A DNA stretch of 15,959 bases, from positions 1-15,959 of the forward strand of contig WJIO01000448.1 in assembly GCA_014730235.1 (NCBI GenBank), read 5' to 3'. Made by a program: the position numbers and the translations under genes. Below are positions 723 through 14,817 of the stretch, piece by piece (within the stretch, counting starts at the first letter, position 1; the number at the start of each line of letters is the position of its first letter). The notes under the pieces were generated by a model, which saw only the letters and a list, made by a program, of their open reading frames with translations, was not told the origin of the DNA and did no database searches. The stretch comes from Candidatus Poribacteria bacterium (lineage in GTDB: Bacteria > Poribacteria > DTPJ01 > WJIO01).

Positions 723-3700
723 ATGCGTATTAAATCAGTCAATTTCCTTTGGATCAAATCTACGTTAATTTTTATTTCTGTTTCCCTTTTGCTGTTATTG
801 GTCAATAATTCCTATGGTTTTGGTATCCCTCAACCTTATTATACCCTTTGGGGGAGAGCATACGTTGATAATGTGCAACTCACCAGGGAAGATGATCAAT
901 ATGTTGTTTCTCTCAAAGTTAATGATCAGAAAATTGTTTCTTATGAAATGGGTGATGTCACAATAAATCAGGATTACTATGTTTTGAGAATACCCATGAG
1001 TACAGGGCAAAGGATTGAGGGAACAGCACAAGCTGGAGATATAGCCATTATTTTTATAAATGACATACCTATCAATGATATGTATGTTGGGCAATTTCAC
1101 GAAAAACTATCTTTTCCTTTTATTATTGGTGAACCAGGGGAAACAAAGCAACTGGATATATATGCGCAAATCCCCCCGGCATCTATAACAAATTTGTCAG
1201 CATCTACAGGCGTTAATGAAGGTGAAGTTCTTCTCACCTGGATTGCTCCCGGTGATGATATGTATCTTGGAACAGCCACAGGGTATGTGGTTAAATATTC
1301 ATCTCAGCCTATAACCAACCAGACTGAATTTGATAATGCTGATACATATTCACAATCATGGATGCCAAAATCATCAGGTGAAGGTGAAGAACACACAATT
1401 ACAGGTCTTCTTGGTGGAAAAAACTATTATTTTGCAGTTGAAGCCTATGATGACTCAACATTACAGGCCAGTATATCAAATAATCCGGTATATGCTGTAA
1501 CTGCGGATAGAACACCACCCTATGCCGCTGGACATAATCCCGAACCCTCATCTATAGTTTCAGTTGATGTAAACATTTATATTGAGTTGAAAGATGACGG
1601 ATTGGGAGTATATCAAAATACCATACAAATGTTTGTGAATGGAGTTAATGTATTACCCCAGATATCGGCAATTGTAGATGGATATTCACTAACCTACAAT
1701 CCTCCGGAAAACTTTCAGTATGACCAGGAAATTACTGTGTCTGTTTTTGCTTCAGATACAGCTATTCCACCTAATTTAATGGATATACATACATATTCCT
1801 TTCAGACAACTTCAGGAAATGCACCCTGGGTCAGCAATTTGACCATTACTCCAGAGAATCCTACAGGTAACGATAGTCTAACTGGAAGCTATGAATACCA
1901 TGACCCGGAGGAAAATCCTGAAAGCGAACTTACTGAAATAAAGTGGTATAAAAACGGTGCAGTTCAAACGAATTACAATAACGTTTTAATTATTCCATCG
2001 GAGTCTGTAGCCAAAGGAGATGAATGGCTTTTTACCGTTAAACCTCATGATGGCTACAACTACGGACAGGTTCAGGCTTCAGGAACTTTAGTTATAGGTA
2101 ATATACCGCCCGCGGCTGATAACCTCAAAATATCCCCTGATGTTCCTTTTACTTACGATGAATTGATAGCTGGATATGATTTTAGCGATGAAGACGGTGA
2201 TTCAGAAGGAGTTTCCATAATAAACTGGTATAAGGATGGTCAGATTCAGAATGATCATGATAACAAAATTACAATTTTGCCGGTTTATACAGCCAAAACA
2301 CAGGTATGGTATTTTACTGTAAAACCTTATGATGGATCAGGTTATGGTGAGATAAAGACTTCATCTTCTGTTACCATAAGGAACAGCTCTCCTGTAGCCA
2401 GTAACCCTTTAATTAACCCCTCCGTTCCTCTCACAAATGATAACCTTTCTGCCACATATAGCTACAGCGACGCGGATAATGATCCGGAATATGGCAGCAC
2501 TATAAGGTGGTATAAAAATGAGGTTATACAATCGTCATACAATAATAGCAAGATTTTGCCTTATAACGTTACATCCAAAGGACAGACGTGGCGTTTTGTG
2601 GTTAAACCCGGTGATGGAATAGAACTTGGGAGTTACCAATCTTCACCGGAAGTAGTAATCGGAAATACCCCTCCTGCTGTCAGCAACGTGGTTCTAACGC
2701 CAGCTTTACCTTCTTTGAGTGATAATTTACAGGTTGAGTATGATTACAGCGATCCTGATAGTGATCCTGAAAGCGGAACGGAAATTAAGTGGTATAAAAA
2801 TGGAATAATTCAGGATGTTTATGCAAACTCCCTTGTAATTCCATCTGCTGCCCTCGCAGAAGGTGACCAATGGTATTTCACTATTAAACCTAAAGATAAT
2901 TTTGATTTTGGAGAAATTGTTACATCCAATTCAGTGACTGTTATTGTTGGTAATACACCTCCTGTTGTCAGTGACCTGTCTATAACACCAGCTTCACCCA
3001 ATACACTCCAGGATTTTACAGCTTCCTACATTTATAATGATGTCGATGATGATCCTGAGAGTGAGTCTACAGAAATCAAATGGTTTAAAAACAATGAAGC
3101 TCAACCGGATTTTAATGATATACTTACTATATCCGCTGAATATACTAATAAAGATGATTTATGGTACTTCACTGTTAAACCTCACGATGGTAAAAATTTT
3201 GGAGAAATCAGGACAAGCTCGGTTGTTAAAGTTGTTAATACTCCTCCTGTAGCTACTGGATTAACTATATCCCCCGATTCTCCTCTTACTGGTGATAATT
3301 TAGTTGCCAGCTATGAATACAACGATATAGACGATGATATTGAATCCGGTTCAATAATAAGATGGTATAAAAATAACATACTTCAAGTGGAATACAATAA
3401 CCTAAAAACTGTTTATTCTACTACTACAGCAAAGGGGGATTTATGGTATTTTACCATAGCACCAAAAGATAATACTGCTTTTGGTGAGACCAAAAATTCT
3501 GGTGCGGTTATAATAGGCAACACACCACCTTCAGCAACTAATGCTGTTATAATTCCAGAACAACCAGTAACCAGTGATAATCTCAAAGCAAGCTATAATT
3601 ATAGCGATGTTGACGGCGATCCGGAAGAAGGCAGTACCATAAGATGGTATAAGAATAATAATATAGATTCGACATATAATGATGCCGAAATTTTGCCAGC

Positions 3701-4595
3701 AAGCGCAACCACCAAGGGTCAGGAATGGCGTTTTGTAATCAGACCCGGAGATGGTGCTACTTTGGGTACATATTTATCATCACCTGTTATTGTAATTGGT
3801 AATACACCACCAGTTGCAAATGCCGGTGAAATTTATGAAGCCAAACCCGGTGAAACAGTTTTTTTTAATGGCTCATCATCTTACGATGTGGACAATGATA
3901 TTCTGGAATACCACTGGGATTTTGGTGATGGTACAAAGGGTGTTGGTAAAACAATAACTCATATTTATGAAGACCAAGGTGTTTATAATGCTAGGTTAGT
4001 TGTAAATGATGGTTCTGTAGATTCATTAATATCCAAAGTTGACGTATATATTGGTACGGATCCCAGTTATGTTCAGCAAATGACTTTTGAATTAGCTGAG
4101 GGTTGGAACCTCATATCTTTCTTCGCTCAGTCTGCTGATAAAAGTCTGGAGGCAGTTCTTGAATCCATTGACGGTAATTATGAAGCTATATGGGGATATG
4201 ATTCTCTATCCGGTGAATGGCAAATATATGATCCGGACAATCCTCCTTTTCTAAACACCCTATGGGAAATTGAGATAGGAAAGGGATACTGGATTAAGAT
4301 GAAAACATCTGATACTCTTATTGTTCATGGAGTTAAGTTTTCATCACCTATATCATTAGAAGCCGGTTGGAATCTTGTGGGACATAATTCAGAAAACAAT
4401 CTTGATCTGGAATCCTTTATTAATCTTTTGGGAGAAATCTTTGTCTCTATATGGACTTATGACCCGTATGAAAAAAAGTGGGTAGGATATTCATCTGGTT
4501 GGCCTGACTTTCTGGAGCGGCTTGAATATTTATCACCGGGCAAAGGCTACTTGCTTAAGGTAAGTGCCAGCGGTGTGTTGAATATAGAAGAATGA
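723..4595 (+). CDS. Large secreted multi-domain protein: FN3, Ig-like repeats, PKD, two GWNLIS modules
   Basis: This 1290-residue exported protein has no visible catalytic domain. In order: Sec signal peptide (1 to about 32, hydrophobic core TLIFISVSLLLLLV); a head domain (about 35-150) shared with the next two genes; a fibronectin type III-like domain (about 151-262, with GYVVKYSSQP and NYYFAVEAYD); an Ig-like domain (about 263-366); seven tandem repeats of about 94 residues (367-1026); a PKD domain (1027-1115, with YHWDFGDGT); and two modules of about 80 residues, each opening with a GWNL motif (from about 1125 and 1213) and carrying IWxYD and GKGYW/L motifs. It lacks the FlgD-like sorting tail of the 2137-residue protein. 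The start has only a weak AAGG 11 nt upstream, but the signal peptide starts immediately, which favours this ATG. An adhesive or structural role at the cell surface is inference from architecture. Confidence 0.92.
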   Translation: MRIKSVNFLWIKSTLIFISVSLLLLLVNNSYGFGIPQPYYTLWGRAYVDNVQLTREDDQYVVSLKVNDQKIVSYEMGDVTINQDYYVLRIPMSTGQRIEGTAQAGDIAIIFINDIPINDMYVGQFHEKLSFPFIIGEPGETKQLDIYAQIPPASITNLSASTGVNEGEVLLTWIAPGDDMYLGTATGYVVKYSSQPITNQTEFDNADTYSQSWMPKSSGEGEEHTITGLLGGKNYYFAVEAYDDSTLQASISNNPVYAVTADRTPPYAAGHNPEPSSIVSVDVNIYIELKDDGLGVYQNTIQMFVNGVNVLPQISAIVDGYSLTYNPPENFQYDQEITVSVFASDTAIPPNLMDIHTYSFQTTSGNAPWVSNLTITPENPTGNDSLTGSYEYHDPEENPESELTEIKWYKNGAVQTNYNNVLIIPSESVAKGDEWLFTVKPHDGYNYGQVQASGTLVIGNIPPAADNLKISPDVPFTYDELIAGYDFSDEDGDSEGVSIINWYKDGQIQNDHDNKITILPVYTAKTQVWYFTVKPYDGSGYGEIKTSSSVTIRNSSPVASNPLINPSVPLTNDNLSATYSYSDADNDPEYGSTIRWYKNEVIQSSYNNSKILPYNVTSKGQTWRFVVKPGDGIELGSYQSSPEVVIGNTPPAVSNVVLTPALPSLSDNLQVEYDYSDPDSDPESGTEIKWYKNGIIQDVYANSLVIPSAALAEGDQWYFTIKPKDNFDFGEIVTSNSVTVIVGNTPPVVSDLSITPASPNTLQDFTASYIYNDVDDDPESESTEIKWFKNNEAQPDFNDILTISAEYTNKDDLWYFTVKPHDGKNFGEIRTSSVVKVVNTPPVATGLTISPDSPLTGDNLVASYEYNDIDDDIESGSIIRWYKNNILQVEYNNLKTVYSTTTAKGDLWYFTIAPKDNTAFGETKNSGAVIIGNTPPSATNAVIIPEQPVTSDNLKASYNYSDVDGDPEEGSTIRWYKNNNIDSTYNDAEILPASATTKGQEWRFVIRPGDGATLGTYLSSPVIVIGNTPPVANAGEIYEAKPGETVFFNGSSSYDVDNDILEYHWDFGDGTKGVGKTITHIYEDQGVYNARLVVNDGSVDSLISKVDVYIGTDPSYVQQMTFELAEGWNLISFFAQSADKSLEAVLESIDGNYEAIWGYDSLSGEWQIYDPDNPPFLNTLWEIEIGKGYWIKMKTSDTLIVHGVKFSSPISLEAGWNLVGHNSENNLDLESFINLLGEIFVSIWTYDPYEKKWVGYSSGWPDFLERLEYLSPGKGYLLKVSASGVLNIEE
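1821..3800 (+). repeat. Seven tandem repeats of about 94 codons
   Basis: The units begin at protein residues 367, 460, 554, 648, 744, 839 and 933, a period of 93-96 residues (about 282 nt). Most open with NTPPVxS/A, followed by a Y-x-Y-x-D-x-D-x-D-x-E acidic stretch, an IxWYKN motif, YNN, then WxFTVKPxDG near the end. The WYKN and KP-x-DG pattern suggests an Ig-like beta sandwich with a calcium-binding acidic loop. DNA identity between units is low, so the expansion is not recent. Confidence 0.85.
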
Positions 4596-4888: not shown

Positions 4889-6169
4889 TTGATTAGTAAT
4901 AGAAAAGGTATCGCATTATTTTTTTGTATCATTATAATTAGCCTTCTAACCCATGTAACTTTAGCTCAAGAACAGCTAACACCACCACCTTTCCCCTCAC
5001 ATCTTATTCATGGAAGTGCCACTATAGAAGGAACACAAGTGGCTGATAATGAAATGGTATCTGCTAAATTGGATCGACTATTAATTATCTTCATGGACAG
5101 TTTTGATTCCCAAGGAAAGATAAATAATATAATAAATGATCTGAATATTCAATCTGCTGCCTCTCTTAGTGTAGAAGTCAACGCACTTCAGTATTGTATT
5201 GATGAAGGTATTACGCTTCCTGCTGATGCCAATGTTGCTGATATTGACACCAATACCTGGCAGCTTACAGGAGGTGGTAGAGTTTATACCATAGTTGTCG
5301 AGAATATTGATGTCTGGAATGGGGCTGCATGGATAAACGGAAAGAAACTGGAAGTTTTTTTGCATAATGGTGTGATTGATAGATATATCATGGGATCTTA
5401 TGATACCAACGAATATATATTGGAGATCCCACTTTCATCTGACAAGGTTCTTGTAGGGACAATTGGTAATCAATATCTTTTAAGAGAACCCCTGAAAGCA
5501 ATACCTGGCGATAAAGTGTCATTCTATATTAGGGGTGTAAGAACCAATAATGTAAATGGTGAAGATGTTATCCCTGGTACTACTCTTCATGAAGTTACTG
5601 AAAAACCTATTGTTAATGTTAATATCGAAGCACCCAATGAAATACCATTCAGCATAGATCTAAAAGCTGGCTGGAACCTTATATCTATTCCTGTTTGGTT
5701 AACCAACACTAACCGTGACGCAGTTCTGGATACAATTTTAGATAGCTATATATCCATCTGGCAGTATATACCATCTCCTGTTAATGATTGGTTAACCTAT
5801 AATAATATCGACAAAGATGGTTTATTGGATACTGTTCAATCAGGAATTGGCTACTGGATAGAAATGGAAAATGATGATACTTTAACCGTTCTTGGACTTC
5901 CCATTGAAAATGGAAATATTGATTTACCGGCAGGCTGGAGTTTAGTTGGTTTTAATTCCTTGAAAAGTATTTCTTACGAAGATGCCTTAAATTCAGTTTT
6001 TAATTCATATAATTCCATTTGGACTTATATACCTTTTCCTGTTAATGATTGGATATCATATGAAAAAGGTGAAGATTATCCTGATCTGGACGTAACCCCT
6101 GGTTTTGGTTATTGGTTCGAAATGGATCAGGAGGACACCTGGGAAATTCAATGGCAAATGAGTGAATAA
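4889..6169 (+). CDS. Secreted protein with the shared head domain and two GWNLIS-type tail modules
   Basis: This 426-residue exported protein has a signal peptide (1-26, cleavage after THVTLA), a Pro-rich TPPPFP segment, and a head related to those of its two neighbours (about 35-245; MGSYDTNEYILEIPLSSD matches MGDVTINQDYYVLRIPMST of the upstream protein). An extra stretch of about 80 residues interrupts the head. The tail consists of two modules starting near residues 253 and 344, each with AGWxLxx, IWxYIPxPVNDW and GxGYWxEM motifs. It looks like the preceding 1290-residue protein with the FN3, Ig-like and PKD middle removed, so the two are probably paralogues. The start codon is TTG, chosen because GGGGGAG lies 6-8 nt upstream and the signal peptide follows at once. 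Biochemical function is unknown; I see no catalytic motif. Confidence 0.88.
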   Translation: MISNRKGIALFFCIIIISLLTHVTLAQEQLTPPPFPSHLIHGSATIEGTQVADNEMVSAKLDRLLIIFMDSFDSQGKINNIINDLNIQSAASLSVEVNALQYCIDEGITLPADANVADIDTNTWQLTGGGRVYTIVVENIDVWNGAAWINGKKLEVFLHNGVIDRYIMGSYDTNEYILEIPLSSDKVLVGTIGNQYLLREPLKAIPGDKVSFYIRGVRTNNVNGEDVIPGTTLHEVTEKPIVNVNIEAPNEIPFSIDLKAGWNLISIPVWLTNTNRDAVLDTILDSYISIWQYIPSPVNDWLTYNNIDKDGLLDTVQSGIGYWIEMENDDTLTVLGLPIENGNIDLPAGWSLVGFNSLKSISYEDALNSVFNSYNSIWTYIPFPVNDWISYEKGEDYPDLDVTPGFGYWFEMDQEDTWEIQWQMSE

Positions 6170-6234
6170 AGTGAATAATATGCTGGATGTTCACTTGATG
6201 TTTGAGATTTAATATTTTTAGGAGGGAGTACGCT

Positions 6235-9200
6235 ATGTTAAAACGTTTTACAATATTCCTGATTTGTTTTGGAATATTATCAATTTTTGTTGTTAGCAAT
6301 TTATTTGCTCAACAACCACCACCACCGCCAGAATACAAATTAGAAGGCGGTGTTTATCTTGGTAATCAGAAATTAACACCAACGACTAATACAGATCACC
6401 TTAAGTATACTGTAGAGTTAAGAAAAACATCTGACGGAACTTTAATTGCAGAACATAATATGGGAACAAAAATCGTTCCGTTTGGTGATAGTTATAGCTT
6501 TAGTGTATACCATACTTACGATCCTGATCCCGGAGTTCCTGCTCCAGAGGGCACAGAGATAGAGGTTGTAGCCTTTTATAATGGTGAGGAATTTCCTGCA
6601 TATTTCGGTAGTGGCGGAACAGCAACCAAGCTGGTAGGTACTGGAAAAGAAACTATTGATATATATTTCTTTACCAAACCCGGCACACCTCAAAGCCTGG
6701 AAACTCTTGTTGGCTCTGATGGAGCGCCTACCCTTAATAAACTGGATCTTAGCTGGATAGCACCCGGTAGTAATGTGGTCCCTGAATCACCAAATGGTAC
6801 AGGTACTGTAGGTGGATATGAAGTTAAGCTCCTGGAAGCAGGTACACCTCCCGGTGACTGGGGTACTGCTGGCGATTTAATTGCTAATATAAATGATTCA
6901 CTCCTTCCTATGGGTGAAACAGAAAATCGCACAGTTGATCTGGGTTCTCCCATGACTTACGGTAATTCTTACTATGTATCCGTAAGGGCCTTAAACAATA
7001 CTCTTGACCCAAATCCTGGATTTAATGGCTTTGCTACGGCCCAAGTCAATATGCCTCCAGAGGTTGAAAATGTTGCAATAGGTCCGGCTGATCCCAAGAC
7101 TACTGATGATCTGGTTCTTACCTATGACTATTCCGATCCTGATGGCGATGAAGAAAGCGGAACTGAAATTAAGTGGTATAAAGATGGCGTACATATGACT
7201 GAGTATGATGATATGATGGAAATACCAGCCGATGCCACTGCAAAAGATCAGACATGGAGTGTAGAGGTTGAACCAAAAGACGGTAAATCCTCTGGAAATG
7301 TAGGTCTAGCAGAAACCACAATACTGAATTCGCCACCTGTCGCCGAAGCTGATGGACCTTATGCTGGAAAAGTAGACCTGGAAGTGAATTTCAGCAGTGC
7401 AGGTACAATAGACGCTGATGACGATCCCTTAACATATCTGTGGGATTTTGGCAATGGAGATACCAGCGCCGAACCTAATCCCTCTTATACATACGCCGCC
7501 GATGGTGAATACAATGTAACTCTTGTCGTTAATGATGGTGAAGAAGATTCAGATCCTTCAGAAACGACAGCTACTATCACAGTAAATATACCACCTGTTG
7601 CCAATTTCTCCGTCTCAGATCCCCAGGATACACATTACATGAGGGGAGAAACTATTACTTTCGATGGTTCCTTATCGGTAGATGATGATGACGTCGTTCC
7701 TGACAATTTGATATTTACATGGGATTTTGGCGACGGATCTGACATAGTTGTCTCCGAGCGGGGTGATTCCACTGTAACTCATGTATATGAAATAGCAGGC
7801 ACTTATGAAGTTACGCTGACTGTTCAGGATTATCTGGATACATCAGAAGAATCAGAGCCTACACAGTTGACAATTAAAGTTGCGCCCGTAGCTATTGCTT
7901 ATCCCATGGAAGGCCCTGAAGGTGATCCACTTAGTTTTTACGGTGGTGACTCCACCGACGAAGATGGTGAAATCACCAGTTACGATTGGGATCTTGATGG
8001 CGATGGCGTGTTTGATGACGCTTCTGGTCCTAACATAGAGTATACATGGTATGACGATTTTTCAGGCACAATAGAGCTTCAGGTTACAGATAATGATGAA
8101 TTAACAAATACAACAGAGGTTCAGGTTACAATTACCAACGTAGCACCAACCGCTGTAGTAAACAATAACAGCCCAAAGGTTGAAGGTGAAGAGGTAACAG
8201 TAAACATAGTTGACATCTTTGATCCCGGTACTGAAGACACCCATACCTATGAAATTGACTGGGATTATGATGGTGAAACCTTTGTTGCTGATGAAACTGG
8301 TAATGTAGTTGCTGAAACCGTTGCGGTAACAAAGACATGGTATGACAATGATACTTTCAATGTTGGCGTAAAGATCGTTGATGATGATGGAGATTCCAAC
8401 ATATACGAAACTGAAGTCATAGTAGCGAACGCACTTCCTGATGCCGTAGCAACCAGCGATAGTCCTGTTGATGAAGGTTCTCCTGCTACTGTTACAATCA
8501 GTAATGTTACAGATCCCGGTACTGAAGACACCCATACTTATGAAATTGACTGGGATTACGATGGTGAAACCTTTGACGTTGATGAAGCTGGAAGTATAGT
8601 TGATGGAACAGCAATAGCCACAAAGACCTGGAATGATAATGGTATTAAAAATGTTGGGGTAAAGATTATAGATGATGATGGTGGTCCTGTAGTTTTAGAC
8701 CCATTGGAGATCATTGTAAATAACGTAGCTCCTACATTTGATTTAGCTGTTGTTGATGCACCTGAAGGCTCACCTGTTAATGTAAATATCAATAACGTTG
8801 CAGACCCGGGCACACTGGATACCCATACTTATGAAATCGATTGGTATTACGATGGTGAAACCTTTGATGCTGATGAGACCGGTGGCATAGTTGATGGAGC
8901 TGCAACAACGACCATGACATGGTATGACAATGATGATTATACCATTGGCATAAGGGTTATAGATGATGATGGTGATTATAGTATGGAAACTGAAGTTGTT
9001 GAAGTAGCAAATGTAGATCCTACCGCTACTGTAGACAACGACAGTCCAAAAGACGAGGGTGAAGAAGTAACTGTAGACATCAGCGAAATTGTAGATCCTG
9101 GTACAGATGATACTCATAGCTATGAAGTTGACTGGAATTGGGACGAAGTTGATGAGAACTTTGTCGCTGACGAAACTGGTGATATTGTTGATGGAACTGC

Positions 9201-12200
9201 AACAGTAACTCAAACCTGGTACGATAACAGCGATCCTGAAGAACCTTATGTTGTTGGTGTAAAAGTTATGGATGATGATGGTGGATTTAATATATATCCA
9301 ACATACGTTATCGTAAATAACGTAGCTCCCACAGCCGAAGTGACCAATGACAGCCCTCAAGAAGCTCCAAAATCCAGGGGTAAAGAAATAACTGTAACCC
9401 TCAGTGAAATTGCAGACCCGGGCACATTGGATACTCATACTTATGAAGTTGACTGGGATTATGACGGTGAAAACTTTGATGTTGATGAAACCGGAAGTAT
9501 AACCGAACAAATAGTTGACGGAAAAGTAGATATAACACACATATATGAAGAATACAAAGAAGAATACCTGGTTGGTGTAAAAATCAAGGACGACGATGAG
9601 GGTGAAAACCTCTATGATACAACAGTTTATCTTAGAGGGACTGAAATTGATGTCACTGAACTTGGTCCAAAACCTGAAGGTACACCTCTAGGTATAGTTG
9701 CAAAGGTTCTTAATCCAAATCCAATTGAAGAATATACCTACTTGTTTAAATGGAACGATGGTGAACCTGATACAGAATACAAAACTTCATCCGGAACCCA
9801 TACCGTCTATCATGTATGGTATGATGATAGCGGCGAAGGAACTGAGGAAGTTAAGGTAAAAGTTACAGATAGCGCAGGTAATGAAGATGAAGAAACAGTC
9901 TATCCTGTGATAACAAATGTAGCTCCTACAGCTACAGTAACTAACGACAGTCCAAAACCCGAAGGTGAAGAAGTAACAATAAGTATCAGCGATATTATTG
10001 ACCCGGGTACTCTTGATACTCATACCTATGCGGTTGACCTGGATTATGATGGTGAAAACTTTGATGCTGACGTTACTGGTGATGTAGTTGACGAAACTGT
10101 ATCAGTGACACATACATGGAACGATAACAATCCACTTGATGAAGAGGGTAACGTTATCCCCTATATTGTCGGTGTAAGAATTATGGATGACGATGGTGGT
10201 TCTTATATGGGTGAAACAGAAGTTATCATAACCAATGTCGCTCCTACAGCCACAATAGTCACTGAACCTGTTGATGAAGGTTCTCCCGCTACTATAAATG
10301 TAGAAGAACCTAATGAAGAAGAGCCTATTGATCCTGGAACTTCTGACATCATAACTTACTCCTTTGACCTTGACAATGACGGTGAATATGAAATTACCGG
10401 TGAGGATGCTTCTGCAACCAAAACATGGTACGAAGATGGTACATATCCTGTAAAAGTAAAGGTCGAAGATGACGATGAAGGGTCTAATGAATATACCGCT
10501 TCAGTTGTTGTTAATAACGTAGCTCCAATTGCTGTAATAACCAATGATAGTCCCAAGGCTGAAGGCAAAGAGGTAACTGTATACATAAGTAACGTTGAGG
10601 ATCCAGGTACAGAGGACACTCACACTTATGAGATCGATTGGGATTGGGATGGTATAGATGAGAACTTTGCAGCCGATGAAACCGGAGATATAGTCGAAGG
10701 ATCTGCATCAGCAACCATGACATGGGAAAATGATGGTGAATATGATGTGGGAGTAAAGATTATGGACGACGATGGCGGATTTAATATTTTCCTCACCGTT
10801 GTTGAAATTACCGACTCCGTACCTGCTGCCGCATTCTCATGGCTGCCTGAAATGCCAAAGGAAGGCTCAATCATTCAGTTCACCGATGAGTCTACTTCTC
10901 CATCTGATGAAATAGTTTCATGGGAATGGACTTTTGAACCTGAAAAGACTAGCGATTTACAGAATCCAAAGTATACCTATTTTGATGATGGTTCTTATCC
11001 AGTTACCCTGAAAGTAACCGATTCTGATGAAGATGCGGATACTGTTAAACATACTGTTGAGGTTGAAAATGTAGCTCCTGTTGTTAATGCTGGGCTTGAC
11101 CAGAAAACGAGCAGGGATAAACCAATAACAATCGTCGCTACATTTAACGATCCCGGTACTCTGGATACCCATACCGCCATGATTAACTGGGGCGATGGTA
11201 CAGAGACAGAGGGTACAGTCAACCAGGCTTTAAATACCGTTACAGGTACTCATACATATACAGCAAATGGTGAATATAATGTTACTATAACGGTAACAGA
11301 TGATGATGAAGGTGTCGGTACAGATGACCTTATGGTCGAAGTATCCGGTGTATCTCTCATAACTGCTATTTATGATGTAATGAGTACAACCCTTATACTG
11401 GAATTCAACAGTCCAATTGTACCACAACTTACATGCTTTGACTTTGTCGGTATGGAAGTTGACGATAGCGGAAATTGGGACTTCCAGTTATCAAAGAAAC
11501 AGGGACTGGTAGCAAAACTGGTTCCCGATCATCCAAATATAGTAACAGTAAACCTGAACAGGGCTATTGCAACATCAATTAACCTAGCTGTTGCTGCTCT
11601 TGGACCAAAACGTGATAAGGTTGATCTGCTGCTGAAACCGGGTGCTTTCTTTGATAATGATGGTGGAACTAATATTCCAGCAGATGTTATCCTTCAAATA
11701 TACATTGATGCCTTTAATCTAACCTACCAGGGTGATGTTGATGGTGATGGCAAAGTGAGTTCAACTGATGCTTTGATCATTCTGCAATCCACAGTCAGCA
11801 ATCCTGCGGATGTATTCCCCATATACGAAGCTGCCACCAGTGTTAATGAATGGTTTGCCGCTTATGGTAAAGATGTCGATGTATTGACTTCTCAGGCAGA
11901 CGTAAGTGGAAATGGTGAAATATCATCCTATGATGCAGCCCTGGTGTTAAGAAATGCTGTGGAATTACCAGCTTTAGCACCAAGTCTGGAAGTTGGCTCA
12001 AAGAAAGCTAAGCTGATGTTTGATGGTTATGATTCAGGCAGAATGAATGTATCAATAGCTGTTGACAATGTAACCAACGTCTACGCTACTGATATAGTCA
12101 TAAAATACAACCCCGATACGCTTTCCATTGCCGATGTGGCTGGAACATCCGCAGTATCCGATTGGGTACTTGCTGACAGCAATGAATCGGGTGAATTGAG

Positions 12201-12648
12201 AATATCCCTGGCTGGAACATCTCAACCTACAATGGATGGTTCATTGATTACAGTTACACTGGACGCTATTTCAGCAGACGCTATTAGGGATCTGGATATT
12301 GTGGATCTAACCGTAAATGACGGTATATCTAGAATAGCTATAGAGAATCTGCCCAAGTCTTTTGTACTTCACCAGAACTATCCTAACCCCTTCAATCCTG
12401 AAACATGGATTCCTTATGAGCTTTCAACACCGGCTGACGTGAGTATTGCCATCTATAACCTGAGTGGTCAGATGGTAAGACGTATTGAACTTGGCACAAA
12501 GATGCCAGGACAATATGTTGATAAATCACAGGCTGTATACTGGGACGGTAAAAACGAATCTGGCGAACTTGTATCCAGCGGCGTTTACTTCTACCAGTTG
12601 CAAGCCGGTAGGGATGTCTCAGTCAGAAAGATGATAGTGGTTAAATAA
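6235..12648 (+). CDS. Giant acidic surface protein: FN3, PKD repeats, dockerin, cohesin, type IX-like sorting domain
   Basis: This 2137-residue exported protein has a signal peptide (1-25, ending SNLFA), then QQPPPPPEY and the shared head (to about 148). FN3-like domain: 149-270. One 94-residue Ig-like repeat with IKWYKDG: about 272-364. Three PKD domains: 365-634 (LWDFGNGD, TWDFGDGS, DWDLDGDG). Acidic PKD-like repeats follow from 635 to 1525, then two further PKD domains (to about 1707), an unassigned module (about 1707-1828), a dockerin (about 1831-1915), a cohesin (about 1917-2040) and a FlgD-like/type IX-type C-terminal domain (2041-2137) starting FVLHQNYPNPFNPETW. The tail suggests secretion through the outer membrane and surface attachment. 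The start is the ATG at 6235 because AGGAGGGAG lies 6-7 nt upstream; a TTG at 6202 in frame has no such site. It lies 65 bp after the previous gene and probably shares its transcript. The very high Asp/Glu content suggests calcium binding. Confidence 0.93.
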   Translation: MLKRFTIFLICFGILSIFVVSNLFAQQPPPPPEYKLEGGVYLGNQKLTPTTNTDHLKYTVELRKTSDGTLIAEHNMGTKIVPFGDSYSFSVYHTYDPDPGVPAPEGTEIEVVAFYNGEEFPAYFGSGGTATKLVGTGKETIDIYFFTKPGTPQSLETLVGSDGAPTLNKLDLSWIAPGSNVVPESPNGTGTVGGYEVKLLEAGTPPGDWGTAGDLIANINDSLLPMGETENRTVDLGSPMTYGNSYYVSVRALNNTLDPNPGFNGFATAQVNMPPEVENVAIGPADPKTTDDLVLTYDYSDPDGDEESGTEIKWYKDGVHMTEYDDMMEIPADATAKDQTWSVEVEPKDGKSSGNVGLAETTILNSPPVAEADGPYAGKVDLEVNFSSAGTIDADDDPLTYLWDFGNGDTSAEPNPSYTYAADGEYNVTLVVNDGEEDSDPSETTATITVNIPPVANFSVSDPQDTHYMRGETITFDGSLSVDDDDVVPDNLIFTWDFGDGSDIVVSERGDSTVTHVYEIAGTYEVTLTVQDYLDTSEESEPTQLTIKVAPVAIAYPMEGPEGDPLSFYGGDSTDEDGEITSYDWDLDGDGVFDDASGPNIEYTWYDDFSGTIELQVTDNDELTNTTEVQVTITNVAPTAVVNNNSPKVEGEEVTVNIVDIFDPGTEDTHTYEIDWDYDGETFVADETGNVVAETVAVTKTWYDNDTFNVGVKIVDDDGDSNIYETEVIVANALPDAVATSDSPVDEGSPATVTISNVTDPGTEDTHTYEIDWDYDGETFDVDEAGSIVDGTAIATKTWNDNGIKNVGVKIIDDDGGPVVLDPLEIIVNNVAPTFDLAVVDAPEGSPVNVNINNVADPGTLDTHTYEIDWYYDGETFDADETGGIVDGAATTTMTWYDNDDYTIGIRVIDDDGDYSMETEVVEVANVDPTATVDNDSPKDEGEEVTVDISEIVDPGTDDTHSYEVDWNWDEVDENFVADETGDIVDGTATVTQTWYDNSDPEEPYVVGVKVMDDDGGFNIYPTYVIVNNVAPTAEVTNDSPQEAPKSRGKEITVTLSEIADPGTLDTHTYEVDWDYDGENFDVDETGSITEQIVDGKVDITHIYEEYKEEYLVGVKIKDDDEGENLYDTTVYLRGTEIDVTELGPKPEGTPLGIVAKVLNPNPIEEYTYLFKWNDGEPDTEYKTSSGTHTVYHVWYDDSGEGTEEVKVKVTDSAGNEDEETVYPVITNVAPTATVTNDSPKPEGEEVTISISDIIDPGTLDTHTYAVDLDYDGENFDADVTGDVVDETVSVTHTWNDNNPLDEEGNVIPYIVGVRIMDDDGGSYMGETEVIITNVAPTATIVTEPVDEGSPATINVEEPNEEEPIDPGTSDIITYSFDLDNDGEYEITGEDASATKTWYEDGTYPVKVKVEDDDEGSNEYTASVVVNNVAPIAVITNDSPKAEGKEVTVYISNVEDPGTEDTHTYEIDWDWDGIDENFAADETGDIVEGSASATMTWENDGEYDVGVKIMDDDGGFNIFLTVVEITDSVPAAAFSWLPEMPKEGSIIQFTDESTSPSDEIVSWEWTFEPEKTSDLQNPKYTYFDDGSYPVTLKVTDSDEDADTVKHTVEVENVAPVVNAGLDQKTSRDKPITIVATFNDPGTLDTHTAMINWGDGTETEGTVNQALNTVTGTHTYTANGEYNVTITVTDDDEGVGTDDLMVEVSGVSLITAIYDVMSTTLILEFNSPIVPQLTCFDFVGMEVDDSGNWDFQLSKKQGLVAKLVPDHPNIVTVNLNRAIATSINLAVAALGPKRDKVDLLLKPGAFFDNDGGTNIPADVILQIYIDAFNLTYQGDVDGDGKVSSTDALIILQSTVSNPADVFPIYEAATSVNEWFAAYGKDVDVLTSQADVSGNGEISSYDAALVLRNAVELPALAPSLEVGSKKAKLMFDGYDSGRMNVSIAVDNVTNVYATDIVIKYNPDTLSIADVAGTSAVSDWVLADSNESGELRISLAGTSQPTMDGSLITVTLDAISADAIRDLDIVDLTVNDGISRIAIENLPKSFVLHQNYPNPFNPETWIPYELSTPADVSIAIYNLSGQMVRRIELGTKMPGQYVDKSQAVYWDGKNESGELVSSGVYFYQLQAGRDVSVRKMIVVK
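8137..10809 (+). repeat. Array of about nine PKD-like repeats, period about 97 codons
   Basis: Units start at protein residues 635, 732, 830, 926, 1029, 1135 (divergent), 1228, 1334 and 1428. Typical units contain NVAPTAxVxNDSP, DPGTxDTHTYEIDWDYDGE, a TxTWYDN segment and VGVKIxDDDG. The first three are spaced by exactly 291 nt (the GATCCCGGTACTG-type core lies at 8221, 8512 and 8803). The first two are nearly identical across about 64 nt, which suggests recent duplication or gene conversion. The sixth unit lacks the DPGT core and is diverged. Confidence 0.88.
11722..12645 (+). other. Dockerin, cohesin and sorting-domain cassette at the C-terminus
   Basis: The dockerin has two calcium loops, DVDGDGKVSSTD and DVSGNGEISSYD, separated by an unusually long linker with DVFPIYEAATSVNEW. 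The cohesin follows, recognisable from VSIAVDNVTNVYATDIVIKY and DTLSIADV near its start and SLITVTLDAIS further on. The last 97 residues form a FlgD-like Ig fold ending GVYFYQLQAGRDVSVRKM, the usual pattern of type IX secretion sorting domains. Having both a dockerin and a cohesin makes the protein able in principle to bind in both directions. Confidence 0.8.
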
Positions 12649-12667
12649 CTAACCAATGCAATACTTC

Positions 12668-12700
12668 AAAAGGGGTATGATTAATAATCATACCCCTTTT
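12668..12700 (+). terminator. Perfect 15-bp hairpin between the giant gene and the cohesin-dockerin gene
   Basis: AAAAGGGGTATGATT (12668-12682) and its exact reverse complement (12686-12700) are separated by AAT. The right arm ends in CCCCTTTT and is followed by GTTTT, so it has the form of an intrinsic terminator for the giant gene. The ribosome binding site of the next gene (GGAG, 12706-12709) starts only 6 nt after the hairpin. No room is left for a separate promoter, so partial read-through is the likely arrangement. Confidence 0.8.
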
Positions 12701-12716
12701 GTTTTGGAGATTGGAA

Positions 12717-13361
12717 ATGAAACATGTATCCATTATCTTATTAATTTTTGCGATTTTTGGTCTTCCCATCTTTGCCCAGGAAGTAAAAGTAAGTATTCCA
12801 GATTCTGTAGGTATACCTGGAGAAATTTTAACTATACCTATCAAGCTAAATAATGTCAATGATGTCAGCTCAGCAGAAATTATAGTTGAATATAATCAAC
12901 AAATACTTGAATTTCTGGAAGTTAACATATCAGATTCTATAACAATCAGTTGGAACATGGTTACTGGTTTTAATGAAAATCAGATTACTATAAATATAAT
13001 TTTACTCCCTGATTTATCTGGAAGTACCGGTCTTGTGGATATTAGTTTTGAAGTAAAACCTACAGCACAGGTTGGAGAAACTACATTTATAAATTTTGTC
13101 CAGGCAAAACTGAATGATGATTTTATTCAAACTCAGGATGGCAAAATCACCATAGAAGATAGTAATGGGGGAAGTGGTATTCCAGGTGATGTAAATGGTG
13201 ATTTAGTTGTAGATCGTCAGGATTTGCTGGATTTGATAATTTCCTATAGAAAAAGATCAACTGATAACGCTTATAAACCCTCAGCCGATTTTAACAATGA
13301 TGGTAATGTTAATAGACAGGATTTGAATATATTAATTGAGAACTATGGCAGACGTGACTAA
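12717..13361 (+). CDS. Small secreted cohesin-dockerin protein
   Basis: This 214-residue exported protein consists of a signal peptide (1-20, ending LPIFA), a cohesin domain (about 22-147) and a type I-like dockerin (about 157-214). The cohesin is recognisable from VKVSIPDSVGIPGEILTIPI and SSAEIIVEYNQQILEF. The dockerin has two loops, DVNGDLVVDRQD (158-169) and DFNNDGNVNRQD (191-202), with the same RQ pair at the positions that set cohesin specificity in type I dockerins. Position 5 of both loops is Asp, consistent with calcium binding. Start: ATG at 12717, with GGAG 7 nt upstream; an in-frame TTG at 12699 would lie inside the terminator hairpin. It is the last gene of the plus-strand cluster. 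It probably serves as an adaptor between a dockerin partner and a cohesin partner, perhaps the giant protein next to it; that pairing is inference. Confidence 0.92.
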   Translation: MKHVSIILLIFAIFGLPIFAQEVKVSIPDSVGIPGEILTIPIKLNNVNDVSSAEIIVEYNQQILEFLEVNISDSITISWNMVTGFNENQITINIILLPDLSGSTGLVDISFEVKPTAQVGETTFINFVQAKLNDDFIQTQDGKITIEDSNGGSGIPGDVNGDLVVDRQDLLDLIISYRKRSTDNAYKPSADFNNDGNVNRQDLNILIENYGRRD

Positions 13362-13449: not shown

Positions 13450-14817
13450 TTATTCATTATTATAGCATTTCTGCAAAGCCCTTAAAGCACTGTCAATAAG
13501 CACCTGATCTGACTGGGGTTCGATAAATATTCCATATAGGCTGGCCCTGGCATGTTGAATCTCATAGCCGCCCAGGGGGATTTGCTCTTCTGTTGGAACA
13601 TAACCTACCGCCCCGTTGGTGTGACTTATGGATATAGTGGTTTTAAAGGGCGATTTCTCAGCCACCTGCTTGCCTATATTTACAAATATCTCACCGGGCA
13701 TACCTACAATAGCCAGATCACCAATTGCAAGGGACTGAGTTTCCGCCGGTATAGTAAAACGTTCCCTGCCATTTTCCAGGTCTTCCACCAGAGCTTTTGC
13801 ACCGTTAAGGGATCGGGCTGTAAACCAGTTTAAAACTTTCTTTTCATCAACTGGTTTGCCTTCATTAGCTTGTTTCGCCTTTTCAATTTCCTCATTTGCT
13901 TTTTTCTGTATGCTGGCCAATTTGGCCTTGGCTTCTTCCAGAGTGGGTTTTTCAGCCAGATTAAATTCAAAATTATCAATAGCTACAGCGATTTTCGCCT
14001 CATCCACCGGATTTTCTATATTTATCGCAGCCTGAATAACCGCGCATCCAAGGCTTTTGCCGTGTTGTTCCACATATTTATAATCACTTCGGGGATATGG
14101 ATTAATATCGCCGCTGCAACCTGCTATGAACCCTGAGGTAACCCCGGGAATATTTCCATCAACAAATTGTTTTGCCCGACCGGGATAATCGGCTGTATAT
14201 TTGTAGTTATCGCCAGTCATTGTCGTTCCATGAGCGGCGCAACTAAAAATTATACTTATTGGATTACCGTTATCAAGACTGTTAATACAGATGACGTTGG
14301 TAACCGAGTCTACTGGGCCATGAGGGTTTTCTCCCAGGATTACAACTCCATCCTGGCGTTTTTCCCGTCTATTCATACCTACCGAGCAGTCCTGTTTAGC
14401 ATAGCCTATGCTTACAGGAACTGAATTTAACTTGGCTTCAGATAACGCACCGGCTATTTTATTCACAAGCACTCTAGCATAGGCGTTCATCAGATCATCT
14501 GAGGGATCACCTCTGCGGAGATTTGTCTGTGGGCCTCCATGAGTATGGGAGAAGGCCACCATTACATTTTCCGGAGGAACACCAGAAACGGCATTGCATG
14601 CTTCCCGCACTCTGGCTGTTCCCTCTCCGCTTATGCCGATTATATCGGCTGTAACCAGAGCCGCCTCTGTTTCACCATCGGTTATATAAAGAACCACCGT
14701 ATTAAGCTCATCCAGAATACCTACAGCCGGTGTTTTACGGGAGGCGTATCCTGACATCATCATGCCTACCGGCGGGGTGATATTAGCTTTTGCTATACCA
14801 GATTTTAAGTTTGCCAT
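13450..14817 (-). CDS. Neutral/alkaline non-lysosomal ceramidase-fold protein, probably not a true ceramidase
   Basis: This 455-residue protein matches the N-terminal domain of neutral ceramidases, zinc-dependent amidases. Zinc-site motifs can be aligned: SHTHGGP (H91, H93), CAAHGTTM (H196) and GMPGEIF (E376). The motif that carries the nucleophile in known ceramidases, GDVSPN, is here GDINPY (236-241), so Asn239 replaces the catalytic serine. The protein is also shorter than Pseudomonas ceramidase (about 650-670 residues), lacks its C-terminal domain and has no signal peptide. A charged helical insert rich in Lys and Glu lies at about 289-327. The substrate is therefore open; many bacterial family members of this length are uncharacterised. 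Start: ATG with AGGAG 7 nt upstream (14825-14829). It probably formed an operon with the upstream peroxiredoxin before a mobile element entered the 18-nt spacer between them. Confidence 0.88.
   Translation of the reverse strand: MANLKSGIAKANITPPVGMMMSGYASRKTPAVGILDELNTVVLYITDGETEAALVTADIIGISGEGTARVREACNAVSGVPPENVMVAFSHTHGGPQTNLRRGDPSDDLMNAYARVLVNKIAGALSEAKLNSVPVSIGYAKQDCSVGMNRREKRQDGVVILGENPHGPVDSVTNVICINSLDNGNPISIIFSCAAHGTTMTGDNYKYTADYPGRAKQFVDGNIPGVTSGFIAGCSGDINPYPRSDYKYVEQHGKSLGCAVIQAAINIENPVDEAKIAVAIDNFEFNLAEKPTLEEAKAKLASIQKKANEEIEKAKQANEGKPVDEKKVLNWFTARSLNGAKALVEDLENGRERFTIPAETQSLAIGDLAIVGMPGEIFVNIGKQVAEKSPFKTTISISHTNGAVGYVPTEEQIPLGGYEIQHARASLYGIFIEPQSDQVLIDSALRALQKCYNNE

Follow-up and report, generated by a model that had tools for sequence, protein, structure and literature searches.

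Two adjacent genes of a Candidatus Poribacteria bacterium (GenBank assembly GCA_014730235.1, contig WJIO01000448.1) encode secreted proteins that each combine one cohesin with one dockerin. We rate the chances as about even that these proteins constitute a non-cellulosomal surface pair, in which the smaller one is held by a cohesin-dockerin contact with a neighbour delivered by a type IX secretion system (T9SS). The window, by which we refer to the whole stretch of 15,959 nucleotides, is the complete contig, termed C401 in this study, of a draft genome of 5.5 Mb with a completeness of 91.6%. The larger gene (6235-12648, plus strand) encodes a giant protein with a signal peptide and many PKD repeats followed by a dockerin, a cohesin and a C-terminal sorting tail, and the smaller gene (12717-13361, plus strand) a tail-less protein of 214 amino acids. 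Our reading proceeds from what was directly observed, namely the domains of both proteins, the modelled folds of cohesins and tail, the organism's genes for a T9SS and the recurrence of complementary neighbours.

Domain organization of the two proteins

The giant protein comprises 2137 residues counted from an ATG at 6235, which is preceded by AGGAGG and was preferred over the TTG at 6202 where the gene starts in the list of open reading frames. Eight stretches of the protein match PKD_4 (E 7.6e-84). As claimed in the original prediction, they are followed by a dockerin and a cohesin that precede a sorting tail. The dockerin is of type I (11731-11952, residues 1844-1916; PF00404 Dockerin_1, 31.3 bits, and 37.3 bits in the genome search) and contains two calcium-type loops, DVDGDGKVSSTD and DVSGNGEISSYD, with an insert of about 20 residues between them. 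The cohesin (~12031-12339) was detected in the whole-genome search by PF00963 (31.5 bits at 12046-12282), unlike in an hmmscan of the whole giant protein, where it was not listed, and it scores 64 bits with a hidden Markov model built in this analysis. The tail (12376-12645) matches the T9SS type A family Por_Secre_tail (TIGR04183, 34.3 bits), and the protein thus ends in the sorting domain that defines a cargo of this system. In an AlphaFold model of a fragment of the giant protein (predicted local distance difference test, pLDDT, 77), the cohesin superimposes on solved cohesins with Z 13.5 and a root mean square deviation of 2.3 over 117 residues, and the tail (model residues 211-307) aligns with the C-terminal domain of PorU from P. 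gingivalis (Z 10.3, 90 residues).

The small protein, which starts at an ATG at 12717 with GGAG upstream, consists of a signal peptide MKHVSIILLIFAIFGLPIFAQ, a cohesin (12783-13133; PF00963, 38.5 bits) and a dockerin (13182-13340; PF00404, 35.6 bits, and 39.1 in the genome search) with the loops DVNGDLVVDRQD and DFNNDGNVNRQD, in the first of which a Leu replaces the usual Gly at position 6. In line with the prediction of a product made of cohesin and dockerin alone, the protein contains no further domain and no lipobox, and it shows no match to a sorting tail, its C-terminus following seven residues after the dockerin. Loss of a tail by a nearby frameshift was ruled out, as the 88 bp to the convergent gene that follows are too short to encode one. 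The cohesin is modelled with pLDDT values of mostly 91-98 (mean of the whole protein 86), and the best matches of the model in the PDB are cohesins with Z of about 17-18. The first Foldseek match is 2xdh (Z 17.7), a non-cellulosomal cohesin of Archaeoglobus fulgidus. The dockerin is modelled as two helices with pLDDT of about 63-80, and its profile matches solved dockerins.

All modules of the window, the two dockerins, the two cohesins and the tail, score above the curated cut-offs, which are 22.9 bits for Dockerin_1, 24.1 for Cohesin and 23 for TIGR04183. Both cohesins combine a profile match with the jelly-roll fold of the family, and both dockerins contain two calcium-loop/helix repeats, so that the modules on which the original prediction depended were recovered, the dockerins by sequence matches. 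The latter classify both as dockerin type I, members of which would bind a cohesin with high affinity and in a calcium-dependent manner. Structure searches with both models were filled by cohesin matches and did not single out the dockerins, which is no evidence against them.

A recurring layout of tailed and tail-less proteins

The arrangement found in the window recurs in the same genome, where four of the seven complete tail-less cohesin/dockerin proteins are immediate neighbours of a tailed one that has the complementary module, with 3-35 bp between the stop-to-stop frames. Besides the window pair, these are a cohesin protein of 394 residues that follows a cohesin-dockerin-cohesin-tail protein (contig C297), a reading frame of 274 residues with lipobox and cohesin that precedes a PKD giant of 2245 residues with dockerin and tail (C88) and, as a mirror case, a dockerin protein of 331 residues located after a cohesin-tail protein of 395 residues (C365). 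Further examples were found in Poribacteria genomes designated G016, G040 and G057, including a cohesin-dockerin protein of 242 residues flanked by two tailed cohesin/dockerin proteins (G040:C83) and the pairs at G016:C45, G016:C175, G016:C229, G057:C317 and G057:C361. When four Poribacteria genomes are pooled, the layout is observed for 10 of 28 tail-less proteins, compared to about 0.2 expected from random placement. A control less prone to ascertainment bias considers the 13 tail-less proteins located beside any tailed gene. In 12 cases that gene carries a cohesin or dockerin, which is found in 64 of the 173 tailed genes overall (binomial p 6e-5). Finally, in a survey of 80 neighbourhoods collected with the tail region of the giant protein as query, 9 of the 22 dockerin-tail genes, compared to 4 of the 86 remaining genes, had a cohesin neighbour downstream (p 5e-5), which we count as support only, since it is partly due to tandem paralogues.

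Several observations weigh against the proposed surface pair. The genomes G016, G040 and G057 were included once examples had been noticed in them, which introduces ascertainment bias into the pooled count. In two fresh genomes, the layout was found for one of five tail-less proteins (G061) and for none of five (G035), the latter rejecting adjacency as a universal rule. G061 contains an additional pair below the threshold, consisting of a cohesin lipoprotein beside a tailed giant of 2192 residues with a dockerin-like stretch. Because 84% of the tailed cohesin/dockerin proteins have a dockerin, complementarity adds little beyond adjacency. Moreover, no ortholog of the small protein by which conservation of this particular pair could be judged was detected among 58 Poribacteria genomes, the best full-length relatives being about 34% identical. 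Equal co-transcription of both genes is rendered doubtful by an intergenic hairpin with U tract on the plus strand (~12667-12707), which resembles a terminator or attenuator. Its stem of 16 bp is perfect, and the 81-nt stretch folds with -27.7 kcal/mol (z -6.7), with none of 200 shuffled sequences being equally stable. It was not listed by a consensus terminator scan, as the stem occupies part of the T run. Since there is no room for a promoter between hairpin and start codon, transcription of the small gene probably depends on partial readthrough of the hairpin or starts at a promoter within the giant gene, and the small protein would consequently be scarcer than the giant. Together, the data define a recurring layout that is genuine in some lineages and non-universal.

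Relatives and the lipoprotein variant

The nearest named relatives of the C-terminus of the giant protein are from Candidatus Poribacteria, and relatives of the small protein occur in 53 of the 58 genomes, which rejects the view that the cohesin-dockerin tandem is a peculiarity of the window. The dockerin-cohesin-tail cassette also extends to Ignavibacteriales, Neomarinimicrobiota, Zixibacteria, Gemmatimonadota, KSB1 and others, with linkers that are short and rather constant. Such wide distribution and spacing would be in accord with a purely structural role, where adjacent cohesin and dockerin form a rigid calcium-stabilized stalk or bind in cis, without a partner in trans. We consider this explanation improbable, since it does not account for tail-less proteins with a single module beside complementary tailed ones, as found in C88, C297, C365, G016:C45 and in the loci L150 and L151 described below. 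Neither AlphaFold model shows a confident cis docking of cohesin and dockerin (predicted template modelling scores, pTM, 0.71 and 0.58; low-confidence linkers). The models by themselves point neither way and leave the relative orientation of the modules unfixed.

In a genome of Krumholzibacteriia (L150) and one of Neomarinimicrobiota (L151), a small cohesin lipoprotein is paired with a dockerin-tail giant. A lipobox in the cohesin partner was recognized by eye in these two, in the pair of C88, and in G057:C371 and G061:C46. Such a lipoprotein could act as membrane receptor for the dockerin-bearing giant. Small lipobox-containing cohesin proteins beside tailed giants are located at L035:382-1203, L150:8283-8804, L151:3152-3697, L202:7628-8428 and L262:7482-8351. 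Those of L202 and L262, which belong to different families, share by eye an Ig-like N-terminal part and may be orthologues. In L084 and L087, from Ignavibacteriales and Balneolales, a dockerin-tail gene is directly followed by a gene for a tailed, scaffoldin-like protein with three cohesins. In an extended version of our proposal, which we regard as rather unlikely, tail-less proteins would bind their tailed neighbour already in the periplasm and pass the T9SS pore as a complex, and lipoprotein partners would serve as receptors that keep the dockerin giant on its own cell. If true, the cohesin-dockerin interaction would be a general T9SS accessory in Poribacteria and related phyla.

Secretion, retention and the repertoire of the genome

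Of a T9SS, matches to the SprA translocon and to PorV-type shuttles are found in the genome. SprA_N matches a frame of 2300 residues with 30.1 bits, which is barely over the cut-off of 27, and the PorV/PorQ family has 25 matches, the best with 226 bits compared to a cut-off of 90. In light of these matches and of 47 sorting tails of the TIGR04183 type, the tail of the giant protein is very probably functional. In the proposed surface pair, the signal peptide would take the giant across the inner membrane, and a T9SS-like route that reads the C-terminal tail would export it through the outer one. The small protein, with a signal peptide but neither tail nor lipobox, would be unable to reach or stay on the surface alone, and would be retained by a cohesin-dockerin contact with the giant. 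As the order of the modules is complementary, with dockerin-cohesin in the giant and cohesin-dockerin in the small protein, the interaction could involve one contact or a two-point clamp. The two proteins would bind each other rather than other partners, either while still in the periplasm or once outside the cell.

Other partners would be available. The wider survey of dockerin proteins envisaged in the original prediction identified by profile search about 15 dockerin and about 17 cohesin matches in the genome. The small protein might therefore be a free adaptor that links many such proteins on the surface, its adjacency to the giant being incidental. This view, which we regard as somewhat unlikely, draws on these numbers, on near-identical SN/SN dockerins in four proteins that could use common partners, and on the three of seven tail-less proteins in the genome without tailed neighbour. 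General exchange is at odds with the RQ/RQ dipeptides of the small protein, which are unique among the aligned dockerins of the genome, and incidental adjacency with the complementary tailed neighbours of the other four. At the specificity positions, the dockerin of the giant has ST/SY and that of the small protein RQ/RQ, as initially noted, but since these dipeptides vary throughout the genome, their difference alone predicts nothing about pairing. The directional pairing and the chain-forming adaptor suggested at the outset are possibilities at most.

The same inventory bears on a potential role of the window proteins as parts of a polysaccharide-degrading enzyme complex. The initial statement that no carbohydrate enzyme is nearby applies to the window, which contains neither a plant-polymer enzyme nor a dockerin-bearing enzyme, but not to the genome, where a heparinase II/III-like protein of 971 residues carries a C-terminal dockerin (contig C400, L043:4375-7290). 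It lacks a sorting tail, and there is no cohesin protein next to it. Despite this protein and the precedent of dockerin enzymes with a scaffoldin-like protein in Ca. Stygibacter of the Cloacimonadota (PMC8542988), a cellulosome-like function appears very improbable, as the heparinase-like protein is the sole recognized enzyme among the scanned dockerin proteins, falling short of an enzyme set in this 91.6% complete genome. With at most two cohesins per protein, and no carbohydrate-binding module (CBM) family reported in them, there is also no classical scaffoldin. The remaining cohesin/dockerin proteins contain PKD, Ig-like, CARDB, LamG, SnoaL-like or PEGA domains, or nothing recognized. The non-cellulosomal surface assembly considered from the outset is thus supported by the cohesin fold, the tail, the SprA- and PorV-like proteins, the lack of a plant-polymer enzyme in the window and the recurring layout.

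Two loci of the genome show other combinations. At one, a cohesin protein combines four SnoaL-like domains with a sorting tail, which is unusual (C201, L046:453-3605). At the other, genes for a cohesin protein with degenerate tail, for a member of the PorV family (C112:12683-13513) and for a dockerin protein are lined up (C112, L045:11724-15491).

Neighbouring genes

The plus strand of the window contains four genes for secreted proteins, the giant and small genes being preceded by one encoding an fn3/PKD protein (723-4595) and a second one at 4889-6169. Neither of their products has a sorting tail, and at the C-terminus both show a duplicated motif of the type 'GWNLIS...IW.Y...GKGYWI'. A C-terminus of the same kind is found in a cohesin protein of contig C74 (L048:5659-6990), and it is possibly a second, unnamed surface domain. 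The ceramidase-like gene on the minus strand (13450-14817), which is convergent with the small gene, encodes 455 residues corresponding to the N-terminal part only of a neutral/alkaline ceramidase.

Relationship to known systems

Cohesins and dockerins owe their renown to complexes that digest cellulose, but many organisms that possess them do not use this polymer. In the literature searched, no paper was found that describes cohesins and dockerins from Poribacteria. With the clostridial cellulosome and its type I cohesin-dockerin interaction, the window proteins share the cohesin fold and the dockerin family, whereas no scaffoldin, CBM or enzyme set was found in the window or its genome, and the envelope is of the Gram-negative type. 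The cohesin and dockerin modules of A. fulgidus, which resemble our case by their occurrence outside a cellulosome and by the match to 2xdh, are also encoded by two adjacent genes, albeit in an archaeon without outer membrane, T9SS, PKD giant or sorting tail. The organism contains non-cellulosomal cohesin/dockerin proteins (Bayer 1999 and Peer 2009, as cited in PMC9012536), and others of this kind have been described in both archaea and bacteria (PMC9012536 and references therein). In anaerobic methanotrophic (ANME) archaea, many dockerin and cohesin proteins are found without cellulose use, with a proposed function in fixing proteins to the outer layer. In contrast to our system, this involves anchoring to an S-layer and scaffoldin-like proteins that contain as many as five cohesins, and no sorting tail (PMC9012536). 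The T9SS-tailed scaffoldin of Ca. Stygibacter, a protein of 3,755 residues in which repeated cohesins and CBMs are accompanied by a surface-attachment domain at the C-terminus, is similar in that dockerins are located on other secreted proteins, but these include GH18, GH57 and peptidase enzymes (PMC8542988), whereas the two proteins of the window are non-enzymatic and carry a single cohesin and a single dockerin apiece. Cohesin-dockerin systems outside cellulosomes, and a scaffoldin with a T9SS tail, have thus already been described, and it is the recurrence of the layout of tailed and tail-less proteins that is new. This layout of a sorted and an unsorted partner suggests a directly testable role, either in surface retention or in co-export by the T9SS neighbour, and it names the exact pairs.
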